The position numbers and the translations under genes are program-made. The notes under the pieces are model-generated. The model saw nothing but the letters and a program-made list of their open reading frames with translations, was not told the DNA's origin and did not search any database. A stretch of 64,000 nucleotides of DNA from Paenibacillus andongensis. GTDB lineage: Bacteria > Bacillota > Bacilli > Paenibacillales > NBRC-103111. The stretch lies in NCBI RefSeq assembly GCF_025369935.1, contig NZ_CP104467.1, positions 1,681,001 to 1,745,000 on the forward strand, given 5' to 3'. Shown here in pieces: positions 16,927-47,724 of the stretch; within the stretch, counting starts at the first letter, position 1, and the number at the start of each line of letters is the position of its first letter.

Positions 16927-17002
16927 GGTATGTGGCTTGTCTTGTCTGATCATGTCGGATAAATGATGAATGAATTTTTATGAGGGGGGAATTGGTTCAA
17001 TT

Positions 17003-17656
17003 ATGGGTAATTCGTATTACTTTCGAAAGATCCACTCTTTGCTTGGCGTAATTCCTGTGGGCTTCTTTCTTATTGAGCATTTGCTCACAAACTATGAAGC
17101 AACAAAAGGACCAGGCGCGTTCGTGGACCAAATTAACTGGTTAAACGGTTTGCCGTTAGTATTGCTCATGGAAATCGTGGGGATCTGGCTTCCGCTTCTT
17201 TACCATGCCGTTTATGGACTTTATGTGGCGTATCAAGCACGTAATAACGTATCGAGTTACGGGTATTTCCGTAATCAAATGTTCATGCTCCAACGGGTTA
17301 CAGGCGTTATCACGTTCCTGTTCGTTGCTTGGCATTTCTTCGAAACTCGTTTGCAGGTTGCCTTCGGTAACGTAGCGCATGAAGAGCTTGGTCGAACGAT
17401 GCACGATATTGCAACGAATCCGGTCATGTTCACGATCTATGTAGTAGGTATCGTTTCCGCTACGTTCCATTTCTGTAATGGACTTTGGTCGTTCCTAGTT
17501 AGCTGGGGGATTACAATTGGTCCGCGTGCGCAACGCATCTCTTCCATCATTTGGATGGCTCTATTCGTTGTCATGTCCGTGATGTTTATTATGTCTTTGA
17601 CTGCATTTACAGATACGCAATTTCAGCTTCCGGTAGAAGCGCATACGGGGAAATAA
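17003..17656 (+). CDS. sdhC: Succinate dehydrogenase cytochrome b558 subunit
   Basis: 217 residues, five membrane helices. It anchors SdhAB to the cytoplasmic membrane and carries two b hemes that pass electrons to menaquinone. Candidate heme-ligand histidines are in RKIHSLLGVIP, LLYHAVYG, VAWHFFET and ATFHFCNG, one near each expected helix. I take ATG 17003 (MGNSYYFRKIH), matching the Bacillus start; GAGGGGGGA lies 13 bases upstream. An in-frame ATG at 16970 precedes that ribosome site. First gene of sdhCAB. Confidence 0.95.
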   Translation: MGNSYYFRKIHSLLGVIPVGFFLIEHLLTNYEATKGPGAFVDQINWLNGLPLVLLMEIVGIWLPLLYHAVYGLYVAYQARNNVSSYGYFRNQMFMLQRVTGVITFLFVAWHFFETRLQVAFGNVAHEELGRTMHDIATNPVMFTIYVVGIVSATFHFCNGLWSFLVSWGITIGPRAQRISSIIWMALFVVMSVMFIMSLTAFTDTQFQLPVEAHTGK

Positions 17657-20672: not shown

Positions 20673-20716
20673 TAAGACAAATGTAAGACATCGAAGTACC
20701 AACCTCATAGCAAACT

Positions 20717-20851
20717 TGTTTTCTAGGGTTCCGCGACAGAATGAAGGCTGTTGGTCAGGTCCAAGAGAAGACACACGGTGAGCTTCATCGTGCACACGGA
20801 GGGATAAAAGCCCGGGAGGATATCAGAATATGATATCGTTCCGGGTTTTTC
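20717..20851 (+). promoter_or_regulatory. ykkC-class riboswitch (guanidine-I-like) with terminator
   Basis: The leader carries the conserved pieces of the ykkC RNA in the right order: CTAGGGTTCCGCG at 20723, GGTCAGGTCCAAGAG near 20754, ACACACGGTGAG, then ACACGGAGGGATAAAAG and CCCGGGAGG. The last piece is also the left arm of an intrinsic terminator (about 20810-20851) that closes with CCGGGTTTTTC, so ligand binding can compete with termination. Known ykkC subclasses sense guanidinium (type 1), ppGpp or PRPP. The plain aptamer and the linked ABC importer favour type 1, which switches genes on with guanidine. Subclass needs covariance scoring. Confidence 0.88.
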
Positions 20852-35184: not shown

Positions 35185-35213
35185 ATTATATGCTAGACCT
35201 TCGTCAGGCGCAA
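35185..35213 (-). promoter_or_regulatory. Probable promoter of the CDF gene
   Basis: On the minus strand TTGCGC (35208-35213), 17-base spacer, TATAAT (35185-35190), 38 bases before the ATG. Confidence 0.6.
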
Positions 35214-35301
35214 CTGATTTTGTGTAAAGAGTATATGAAGAGAGTGAGAGGTCGTAATTGTAGGAGAAGGAGAAGGTATGAAAATAAAGCGCTTTCTAAT
35301 T

Positions 35302-35359
35302 TGTAACATAATTGAAATGTTTCTGTTATGGTTTCATAATGTTTAGGAGGTATTATAAT
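35302..35359 (+). promoter_or_regulatory. OmpR-type operator array and promoter, module copy 1
   Basis: Four hexamers at exact 11-base steps: TGTAAC (35302), TGAAAT (35313), TGTTAT (35324), CATAAT (35335), then GAGGTATTATAATAA with TATAAT at 35354-35359. Direct TGTAA-type repeats one helical turn apart are how OmpR-family regulators such as WalR (two repeats with 5 bases between) bind. The last unit overlaps the -35 position, which itself is poor, as in activated promoters. It drives the short RNA below. Confidence 0.65.
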
Positions 35360-35365
35360 AACCAA

Positions 35366-35423
35366 GACCCCCTTTTTAATATAAACTTTTGAACCCGGCC
35401 CCGTTGGCTGGGTTCCTTTTTTT
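35366..35423 (+). ncRNA. Candidate small RNA, module copy 1
   Basis: From a start about 7 bases after TATAAT, the transcript would be about 58 nt: a short CAAGACCCCC run, a U/A-rich single strand (TTTTTAATATAAACTTTT) and an intrinsic terminator with stem GAACCC/GGGTTC, inner GCC/GGC, loop CCGTT and seven T. There is no start codon with a ribosome site. A second copy at 47665-47724 keeps these blocks, and its stem changes in pairs. The C-rich, unpaired 5' region could pair with G-rich Shine-Dalgarno sequences, as in RoxS/RsaE-type RNAs. It could instead be an attenuator for the 35616 gene, but that gene has its own promoter. Confidence 0.6.
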
Positions 35424-35615
35424 GTTTGGGTACAAAGCAAGCGGGCTCATCGATTGGCTTTTTGCCAATACGCCTCGCGAAGCAAGACCAGCGCGATTAC
35501 ATTTAACACTTACCTTCCTAGTGTAGCCTGTTACACAACTTGCTTGTATTTCCTAATTTTGTAATATATATTAGGTCATGAGAGATCATTTTTTAAAATG
35601 AGAGGAGAGATTATT
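35424..35615 (+). promoter_or_regulatory. Leader region and promoter of the copper-amine-oxidase-like gene
   Basis: TTGCTT (35540-35545), 16-base spacer, TAATAT (35562-35567) form a likely promoter about 50 bases before the gene. Upstream is a small hairpin ATTGGC/GCCAAT (about 35453-35469) and otherwise nothing coding. AGAGGAGAG is the ribosome site. Confidence 0.5.
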
Positions 35616-46225: not shown

Positions 46226-46253
46226 AGTGCTTGTGTGAATTCACACAAGCACT
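46226..46253. terminator. Perfect 28-base palindrome at the end of the esterase gene
   Basis: AGTGCTTGTGTGAA followed by its exact complement TTCACACAAGCACT. The stop codon of the esterase gene lies in its right arm. T-rich sequence follows only on the plus strand, so it terminates plus-strand read-through better than the gene itself; it may also be a protein-binding dyad. Confidence 0.55.
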
Positions 46254-47512
46254 TTATTTATGGTTAGCGGATGAAGCGCATGGCTTTCATCCACATGCAC
46301 GAAGGCGTCGTACCGCCGAGCCATAAGAGAGGGAACATAGTTCCCTCTCTCATGGCCAGGGCGGTACACGACCCCGATGGCACGGTGCTTCAGCACCTCG
46401 TGCCCGAGAATCGGATCCTCCTTGCGCAGCAGGAGGATCTGATCATGCGCGCCAGCGCGATGCATGAGCTCCTCCCAGCTGCCTGGCTGGGCAGGTGGGA
46501 CTTGCATCGTCGCCATCGGCGCGCCCCAGGATGTCGCGGCGATGACCGTGCCGCGGTAAGTGCCGAAGCCGATGGCGAACACATCGGCTTCGCCGTGCGC
46601 TTCGCGCACGAGCTGGCCGACGTTCACCATGCCGTCGGCCATCATATCTGTTGCACGTGCGTCGCCGACGTGCGTGTTGTGCTCCCAGACGATGACTTTG
46701 GCGTCTGGGCCGTGATGGTCGGCGAGGCGGCGCAGCGCCTCGACCATGTGTCGGTCGCGGACGTTCCACGACTCCGCGTCGTGACGAACCATGGTGCGGT
46801 AGTAATCCTCAGCGTTCACAGCAACAAGCGCGTTCAATTCCGCGCTAAGAGCTGCTTCGCTGTCTTCTTCGTACCGCACGCGTTTCGCGTGAAGCGCTTG
46901 AAGCAGCTTCACGACCTCATCTTGGCAGCTTTCGCCATAAAAAGCCGCCGAAACCCCGTAATTTTGCCCCTCCTTCTCATAGGAGTCGAAGCACTCAAAT
47001 GCCTTCCGCGCCAGAGCTAATTGCTCGGGTGTGCCTTTTTCCTTTAAATAACGTTCGATCTCTTCTAGTGACTCCCATAAACTATAGACGTCCAGACCGT
47101 AAAACCCAACTCGCTCTTCCATCGGCTTGTCTGCATTGTGTTGGTTGAGCCACTCCATCAACTCCCCAACCTCCTCATTCGCCCACATCCAAGTCGGCCA
47201 GCGATTGAAAGTTTCCATAACCTCGCGGGAACTCGGCTTTGCATCCTTGTAATGCTTTACATAGCGGTTAACCTCATAACTGGACGGCCAGTCGCCCTCG
47301 ACGGCAATAAAAGAAAAACCTTTCTTTTCAATCAATTTACGGCTCAGCTCCATGCGCAGCTTATAAAATTCCGATGTACCATGCGTTGCCTCACCGAGTA
47401 AAACGTACTTCTTGTCTCCGATTGCTTCTACCAATACATCCAAATCTTCGGAGGTGCTCAGCCGCACAGCTTTTTGTCTAATGTGTTCCACAATGGCGTC
47501 TTCAACTTTCAC
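46241..47512 (-). CDS. Erythromycin esterase family protein
   Basis: 423 residues with GTG start eight bases after AGGAG; the frame remains open for 43 codons upstream without a ribosome site. Family blocks: VLLGEATHGTSEFY with catalytic-type Glu/His (about 34-47), VEGDWPSSYEVNRYV, YGLDVYSLWESL, VWEHNTHVGDARAT. The family includes the macrolide lactone hydrolases EreA/EreB and the succinoglycan-linked SuccA group. Most chromosomal Bacillales members have no shown resistance role, so a drug phenotype should not be assumed. The middle (about 46320-46900) is visibly richer in G/C than flanking genes. Confidence 0.85.
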   Translation of the reverse strand: MKVEDAIVEHIRQKAVRLSTSEDLDVLVEAIGDKKYVLLGEATHGTSEFYKLRMELSRKLIEKKGFSFIAVEGDWPSSYEVNRYVKHYKDAKPSSREVMETFNRWPTWMWANEEVGELMEWLNQHNADKPMEERVGFYGLDVYSLWESLEEIERYLKEKGTPEQLALARKAFECFDSYEKEGQNYGVSAAFYGESCQDEVVKLLQALHAKRVRYEEDSEAALSAELNALVAVNAEDYYRTMVRHDAESWNVRDRHMVEALRRLADHHGPDAKVIVWEHNTHVGDARATDMMADGMVNVGQLVREAHGEADVFAIGFGTYRGTVIAATSWGAPMATMQVPPAQPGSWEELMHRAGAHDQILLLRKEDPILGHEVLKHRAIGVVYRPGHERGNYVPSLMARRYDAFVHVDESHALHPLTINKVLV

Positions 47513-47600
47513 ATGTTTGACTCCTATTCCTAAAGATTTACATTCTGTAGTATGTACAAAAGTGCATACAAAAAAAGCCATTTGAACGGAATCGCTTTTT

Positions 47601-47658
47601 TGTAACACAATTGGAACATTCCTGTTACACTTCTCTAACATAGAAGAGGTATTATAAT
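47601..47658 (+). promoter_or_regulatory. OmpR-type operator array and promoter, module copy 2
   Basis: TGTAAC (47601), TGGAAC (47612), TGTTAC (47623) and TCTAAC (47634) again at exact 11-base steps, then GAGGTATTATAATAA with TATAAT at 47653-47658. Same arrangement as at 35302-35359. The array may also affect the divergent esterase gene. Confidence 0.65.
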
Positions 47659-47664
47659 AAACAA

Positions 47665-47724
47665 GACCCCCCTTTTTTAATATAAACTTTGGACCTGGCC
47701 CCGTTGGCTAGGTCCCTTTTTTTT
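47665..47724 (+). ncRNA. Candidate small RNA, module copy 2
   Basis: About 60 nt: ACAAGACCCCCC, then TTTTTTAATATAAACTTT and a terminator with stem GGACCT/AGGTCC, inner GCC/GGC, loop CCGTT and eight T. Compared with copy 1, the stem differs at two positions, each changed on both arms (A-T to G-C and C-G to T-A), so the hairpin is kept. The nearest downstream gene starts 157 bases later, and no read-through signal is seen. There is no ribosome site or open frame. Confidence 0.6.

Follow-up and report, generated by a model that had tools for sequence, protein, structure and literature searches.

In the window, by which we mean the whole 64,000-nt stretch of the Paenibacillus andongensis genome analysed here, two modules with the same ordered parts lie at 35302-35423 (copy 1) and 47601-47724 (copy 2), and a re-reading of the coordinates found both where the first-pass annotation had placed them. 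After its four hexamers, copy 1 carries in order the blocks GAGGTATTATAATAA, CAAGACCCCC, TTTTTAATATAAACTTT and GGCCCCGTTGGCT, and the later blocks of copy 2 are those of copy 1. The features are as follows (R1 is a covariance model of the RNA part alone):

35302..35340, + strand: copy 1 operator, four hexamers at 11-nt pitch (TGTAAC 35302, TGAAAT 35313, TGTTAT 35324, CATAAT 35335)
35351..35359, + strand: copy 1 -10 region TATTATAAT; TATTAT at 35351-35356 keeps the N10 spacing, TATAAT at 35354-35359 is an alternative
35364..35423, + strand: putative copy 1 small RNA, about 60 nt, with a predicted 5' end; R1 78.9 bits, whole-genome E 4.6e-15
35366..35389, + strand: copy 1 5' stretch GACCCCCTTTTTAATATAAACTTT, unpaired in the fold and kept across families; proposed target-pairing core
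35391..35423, + strand: copy 1 intrinsic terminator, arms 35391-35400 and 35406-35415, loop CCGTT 35401-35405, T run to 35423
47601..47639, + strand: copy 2 operator, four hexamers at 11-nt pitch (TGTAAC 47601, TGGAAC 47612, TGTTAC 47623, TCTAAC 47634)
47650..47658, + strand: copy 2 -10 region TATTATAAT
47665..47724, + strand: putative copy 2 small RNA, about 60 nt, with a predicted 5' end; R1 81.6 bits, whole-genome E 1.1e-15
47691..47724, + strand: copy 2 intrinsic terminator, arms 47691-47700 and 47706-47715, loop CCGTT 47701-47705, T run

The two copies share 81% identity in a BLAST search of the single-contig genome (7.64 Mb; query 1-124, E 9.2e-26). Their differences lie mostly in the drifted spacers outside the near-exact blocks, and the terminator stems differ by two compensatory pairs. 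The window has two occurrences of the loop block GGCCCCGTTGGCT (at most one mismatch), where 0.03 would be expected. No separate -35 was seen at the copy 1 promoter, and the terminator is the sole structure in both the minimum-energy and the centroid folds of the two window copies. The modules had been described as lacking an open frame, and indeed no plus-strand ORF of at least 60 aa overlaps either RNA. Mechanically called minus-strand ORFs overlap the modules at 35204-35440 (78 aa) and 46241-47641 (466 aa); the first ATG of the longer one, at 47641, is at the edge of the copy 2 hexamer array, so that the full-length ORF would cover the array, and its true start is probably further in than 47641. 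Each module has by its sequence the marks of a small-RNA (sRNA) gene, namely a promoter of its own, a strong intrinsic terminator and no same-strand ORF.

R1, which was trained on 39 sequences (about 38 of them from the genus), found seven family copies in this genome (E <= 5.3e-7), and the next match had an E of 0.02. All 30 genus genomes were matched both by BLAST with copy 1 alone and by R1, which gave 5 to 27 matches per genome. The samples of genus, family and order were nested: R1 matched 104 of 104 genomes of the host family (22 of 22 genera; 74 of 74 genomes beyond the genus) and, at E <= 0.001, 287 of 296 genomes of the host order (44 of 48 genera; 183 of 192 genomes beyond the family). 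Outside the order, 8 of 145 genomes passed R1 at E <= 0.001 (phylum sample of 149), and four of the eight matches look genuine, which puts the false rate of R1 at a few per cent; the outside-order loci L344/L354, L345, L347, L348, L350-L353 and L355-L357 were left out of the confirmed relatives. The 24 genomes of the order that were read closely had been chosen among prior matches, and their 24/24 gives no independent rate. Copy number per genome ranges from 1 to 27, with varied neighbours, and tandem copies about 150-195 bases apart were seen at G015:C10:115182/115334, G003:C34:44996/45167 and G280:C59:13391/13584.

Among the best 80 of at least 120 stretches with the RNA pattern, 78 are from Paenibacillus, one is from Fontibacillus and one from a Paenibacillaceae bacterium. 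The pattern by which the named copies were chosen demanded the C-run and CCCGTTG, so these copies are uninformative on those two parts. The copies counted below are 76 from 72 of the 80 named loci, 39 from 39 of 40 further named loci and, in other families of the order, 30 from 29 of 32 loci (L315, L339 and L340 were dropped by the tail filter). Many further copies with the array and the terminator, which the first-pass annotation had named as the sign of a family, were found in this genome and in others. Its author had known of no named family of this design, and no Rfam 15 entry matched the modules at the curated threshold when the window and 16 loci were tested, the best below-threshold overlap being ncr1241 (26.2 against 60 bits). 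In the open PMC literature on Paenibacillus sRNAs and on WalR together with sRNAs, a description of the family was absent among the matches listed. On the sequence evidence, the sRNA family is real and widespread, and it is uncatalogued. Two other RNA elements were noted in these scans, a Guanidine-I riboswitch in the window at 20712-20820 (+) (88.4 bits against a threshold of 63) and, below threshold, a T-box leader at L326 1649-1918 (72.3 against 93 bits).

The unpaired 5' stretch GACCCCCUUUUNAAUAUA is conserved across the RNA family. In other families of the order the G before the C-run is kept in 28 of the 30 counted copies and the AATATA-like part is found again in somewhat varied form, whereas the terminator and the loop change. 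Conservation is not confined to the promoter: GACCCCC..AATATA and a terminator accompany it in these other families as well. The loop block, which had been counted among the conserved parts, holds up near this genus, where alone the CCGTT loop is conserved, but it is changed in distant families, and the kept core is the GACCCCC stretch. Across 80 distinct aligned rows, 90.1% of the terminator stem is paired; double-sided changes number 193, whereas shuffles give 63.3 and none of 500 attains 193, and structures slid along the alignment score far below the true stem. Since the 5' stretch is kept while terminator and loop drift, the unpaired 5' stretch appears to be the conserved functional element; a promoter of its own supplies it, and the terminator that closes the RNA is free to drift. 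Promoter, covarying terminator, 5' stretch and many copies together support the initial reading of the modules as sRNA genes, and both are best regarded as putative free-standing genes for terminator-ended RNAs of about 60 nt. Terminators like that of copy 1 but without GACCCCC were seen at L064, L065, L066, L068, L070, L071 and L073, several with a similar A-rich stretch before them; this set is perhaps another RNA or decayed copies.

The family promoter consists of four hexamers at 11-nt pitch, N10 and a -10 box. When 69 regex-picked stretches were fitted to the array, 68 fitted and one was a false regex match, which was removed before the promoter profile was built; the test imposed the 11-nt pitch and N10 and chose among six offsets, so it measures fit and not free spacing. 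The majority consensus is TGTAAY (H1), TGAAAT or TGGAAC (H2), TGTTAY or TTTCAT (H3), NNTAAY (H4), N10 and the -10, from which some copies depart singly. The genus copies have a near-match first pair (TGTHAH-N5-WGNMAH) in 64 of 67 cases (three lack it), the named copies in 70 of 76 and the other-family copies in 23 of 30; a -10 stands no more than 22 nt away in 67/67, 75/76 and 30/30, respectively. The named copy L192 has lost the promoter array, and L324 and L325, from other families, have lost the first hexamer pair.

Over the whole genome, the four-hexamer array (at most two mismatches) occurs at 12 places, which are the seven sRNAs, two remnants and three others, against one place in the backwards control. 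The three others are two-mismatch sites, and nothing alike was seen at the two that were inspected. The operator is thus nearly private to these RNAs and their remnants in this genome (9 of 12 places). The remnants, which have the promoter and no RNA part (L301 and L302; G000:C1:3824895-3824933 (-) and 3841880-3841918 (-)), include one, L301, that adjoins an ORF resembling, by eye, a reverse transcriptase. A promoter-profile scan of 0.8 Mb of this genome gave no further site above 18 bits. Just beyond the window start, at G000:C1:1678476 (-), there is an operator-like array of 17.6 bits with TACAAT at the right spacing and, downstream, a small ORF (about 52 aa, starting with MIVYDIVLNGEIKETI). 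In the control with the reversed profile, two sites exceeded 16 bits and were as good as this one.

Head-to-tail hexamers at an 11-nt pitch beside a -10 box and without a -35 are typical of OmpR/PhoB-type activators, and TTHACA pairs are of the PhoP type. The WalR box is described as a direct repeat like TGTWAH-N5-TGTWAH (PMC4168254). This pair occurs in exact form in 12 of the 30 other-family copies, each time at the first-pair (H1) position, against 1/30 in backwards and 0/30 in reverse-complement controls. It is rare in the genus (2 of 67 copies; 10 of 76 and 4 of 39 named copies) because the second hexamer there is TGAAAT or TGGAAC, and the 76 named copies also give seven reverse-complement and two backwards matches. 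Over 0.8 Mb of this genome exact pairs are not enriched (11 against 13 backwards).

Four credible relatives of the family lie outside the order (L342, L343, L346 and L349), each with a TGTAAT-like pair (GTAAT and GGTAAT in L349), N10, a -10 and GACCCCCUC. At L342 and L343 the RNA is directly upstream of a YycF-type regulator followed by a WalK-type kinase (walR-walK) on the same strand, and at L346 a YycF-type regulator is one ORF downstream of the RNA; no walR was found within the short stretch of L349. The best NCBIfam models at these distant loci are YycF and WalK: at 319.6 and 329.2 bits the full YycF-type regulators fall a little short of NCBI's threshold of 340, the next models being 69-79 bits lower, a partial one scores 204 bits, and the kinases match WalK best although their sequences are cut by the locus ends. 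The family has relatives beyond its host order and is probably old: the position of three of them at or near walRK in distant Bacillota suggests an ancestral WalR-linked RNA that was later multiplied and dispersed in the order. A related RNA, at L344 (G316) and L354 (G359) of one genus outside the order, combines CCCCCC and TTCTTC with an ATATAC tail that precedes its terminator; a TTAACA..TGTTA element stands in front of it, and the four-hexamer array is absent.

Two findings speak for regulation of the modules, as first proposed: the operator, which in this genome hardly occurs elsewhere, and the three distant relatives near walRK. The regulator is probably WalR (YycF) or a very close relative. 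A possible though doubtful alternative gives the same sRNA family a different OmpR/PhoB-type activator, either PhoP or one specific to the lineage, through which it would answer phosphate or some other signal in place of cell-wall growth. PhoP sites, like WalR sites, consist of directly repeated hexamers at 11-nt pitch, a WalR-type hexamer read on the other strand gives TTTACA, an array next to the -10 also suits PhoP-type activators, and type-2 copies have TTTCAT and CTTAAT at the third and fourth places, which are not WalR consensus. Furthermore, this genome has exact TGTWAH pairs upstream of both pstS and a phoP-like gene, so that the consensus does not clearly distinguish PhoP-type from WalR-type boxes here, and our estimate for WalR was lowered slightly for this reason (the phoP-like protein scores 207.6 bits with YycF and 204.2 with PhoB, each under the cutoff, and is therefore named tentatively). 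Against this alternative stand the three relatives at or near walR and the near absence of TTHACA pairs (4-6 base spacers) from the sRNA promoters, with 0/67, 1/76, 1/39 and 0/30 in the genus, named, further named and other-family copies and none in reverse, although such pairs are present in the pst region and upstream of the phoP-like gene. PhoP is accordingly disfavoured.

The reading that we consider rather probable as a whole is that of a WalR-activated sRNA family, multiplied in the order, whose C-run pairs with G-rich ribosome-binding sites (RBSs). Two WalR dimers in tandem would occupy the four head-to-tail hexamers, immediately before the -10, and activate transcription without a -35; RNA polymerase would then make an RNA of about 60 nt from near AAGACCCCC to its own terminator. 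This RNA would carry the stretch GACCCCCUUUUUAAUAUAAAC, unpaired in its predicted anatomy, and the C-run may, by analogy, pair with G-rich RBSs and lower the translation of a set of mRNAs. Such pairing of C-rich unpaired motifs with RBSs is reported for sRNAs of Firmicutes (PMC4132741) and proposed for RsaE (PMC9266662).

Candidate targets were sought in several ways. A perfect complement of the C-run was rejected as the target, as it is not enriched: the 10-base complement AAAGGGGGTC occurs six times in the genome, five of these being the sRNAs themselves, and the control also occurs six times. GGGGG is found in the 20 bases before the start of 54 of 661 called genes and GGGGGTC before none of the 661, and the genes with a GGGGG RBS show no significant enrichment of a functional class, membrane and lipoprotein genes included. 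In a duplex ranking of 1149 pooled genes the top match proved an artefact, since it lay on the strand opposite to an sRNA gene, and the lowest p among 21 gene families was 0.004 (uncorrected). In a three-genome duplex test of 80 genes with orthologues in each genome, 6 keep -13 kcal/mol or lower in all three against a shuffled-RNA mean of 1.96, a count reached by 2 of 100 shuffles; at the remaining cut-offs between -10 and -15 the real count is attained by 8-19 of 100 shuffles, and no real gene is left at -16. The result is weak and only suggestive of conserved targets. The second of the 80 genes is sdhC (17003-17656), an FsrA-type target, which has a G6 run in its RBS (window 16984-16989) that is present in 23 of 23 orthologue rows (its own included), some of them at about 70% protein identity. 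This leaves sdhC (sdhCAB) as no more than a candidate target, and the G6 conservation may be mere RBS conservation.

The 3' tail of 16S rRNA is CACCUCCUUU, and the GACCCCCUUU stretch resembles it. An unlikely but wider reading is that this stretch acts as a decoy anti-Shine-Dalgarno which, released by WalR from many copies, would lower the translation of the whole class of mRNAs with a GGGGG RBS and couple cell-wall growth to the choice of proteins. In that case the essential WalRK system would possess an RNA arm of ancient origin. We also think it improbable that the C/U-rich stretch binds a protein (a chaperone or an RNase) in place of mRNA and that the RNA is a sponge; the strong conservation of a 5' stretch whose perfect complements are not enriched in the genome speaks for this, whereas C-rich motifs in sRNAs of Firmicutes are reported to pair with RBSs (PMC4132741).

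If the RNA acted in cis, it would be a terminated leader or attenuator of the downstream gene (walR in the distant genomes), from which the copies of the order would be derived. Its position directly upstream of walR on the same strand at L342 and L343 fits this, but we hold it to be very unlikely: the first gene downstream of the RNA in the named loci shares its strand in 47 cases and lies on the opposite one in 32, with no gene family common to most, and the folds of both window copies are the terminator alone. This genome has a walR-walK-like pair (walR at C1:7604286-7604975 (-), 54% identity to that of L343), upstream of which there is neither a family copy nor an exact WalR box. Highly improbable is the view that the modules are dispersed non-autonomous repeats that carry a promoter and a terminator about without function in trans, as their number of 1 to 27 among varied neighbours, the tandem copies and the two truncated remnants (one beside the reverse transcriptase-like ORF) might suggest, since they are retained almost throughout an order with a near-invariant 5' stretch and a covarying terminator, and a copy stands beside a gene for a CDF-like transporter in 18 of the 80 named loci (nearest gene in 16). 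CDF-like and hisS-like genes, both named by eye, are the recurrent neighbours in the named loci, and the others are mostly dispersed.

The WalR-activated, RBS-pairing family that we favour has parallels among known sRNAs. RsaE/RoxS, FsrA and IsrR of the Bacillales also have a C-rich unpaired stretch; their promoters and sequences are other than those of the present family, and the window and the 16 loci gave no match to any of them in Rfam. In RsaE, a UCCC stretch is proposed to reach the RBS (PMC9266662). The streptococcal csRNAs (CiaRH) likewise come in several similar copies per genome under a response regulator whose sites are directly repeated hexamers 5 bases apart; they are 87-151 nt long and proposed to block translation starts, and the CiaR box is TTTAAG-N5-TTTAAG (PMC8186281). 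In contrast, the family described here has about 60 nt, four hexamers, the conserved GACCCCCUUUU and up to 27 matches per genome, and the CiaR box is absent from all copy sets on both strands, single TTTAAG hexamers being present in a few. LhrC of Listeria is also multicopy and under two-component control, requiring LisRK, and pairs with RBSs through C-rich sites, of which three containing UCCC lie in loops and single strands (PMC4132741), whereas the window copies have one unpaired 5' C-run (GACCCCC), a CCGUU loop and no unpaired UCCC. As box, length and motif differ, the family belongs to neither csRNAs nor LhrC, which would by analogy be its nearest functional parallels.

The WalR (YycF) regulon has direct-repeat boxes like TGTWAH-N5-TGTWAH, which the first hexamer pair of the family resembles, exactly so in some copies, and relatives in three distant genomes lie close to walRK; the regulon members named in the relevant passages of PMC4168254 are protein genes. 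An sRNA link in the reverse direction is reported in S. aureus, where SprX targets walR mRNA (PMC9266662), and by term counts sRNAs are absent from the main text of a paper on WalRK of C. difficile. RNA-seq of P. riograndensis gave 27 intergenic sRNAs, three of them annotated through Rfam (PMC5670726), and the unnamed ones may include members of this family.

Bacteria for which the literature matches listed few sRNA studies would gain an sRNA family that spans an order, reaches 27 matches per genome and lacks an entry in Rfam 15. Its 5' stretch, long conserved yet without obvious perfect targets, is a puzzle. The family would tie an RNA output to WalRK, the essential regulator of the cell wall, and if this is true, WalRK acting partly through RNA would offer an angle on its essentiality.
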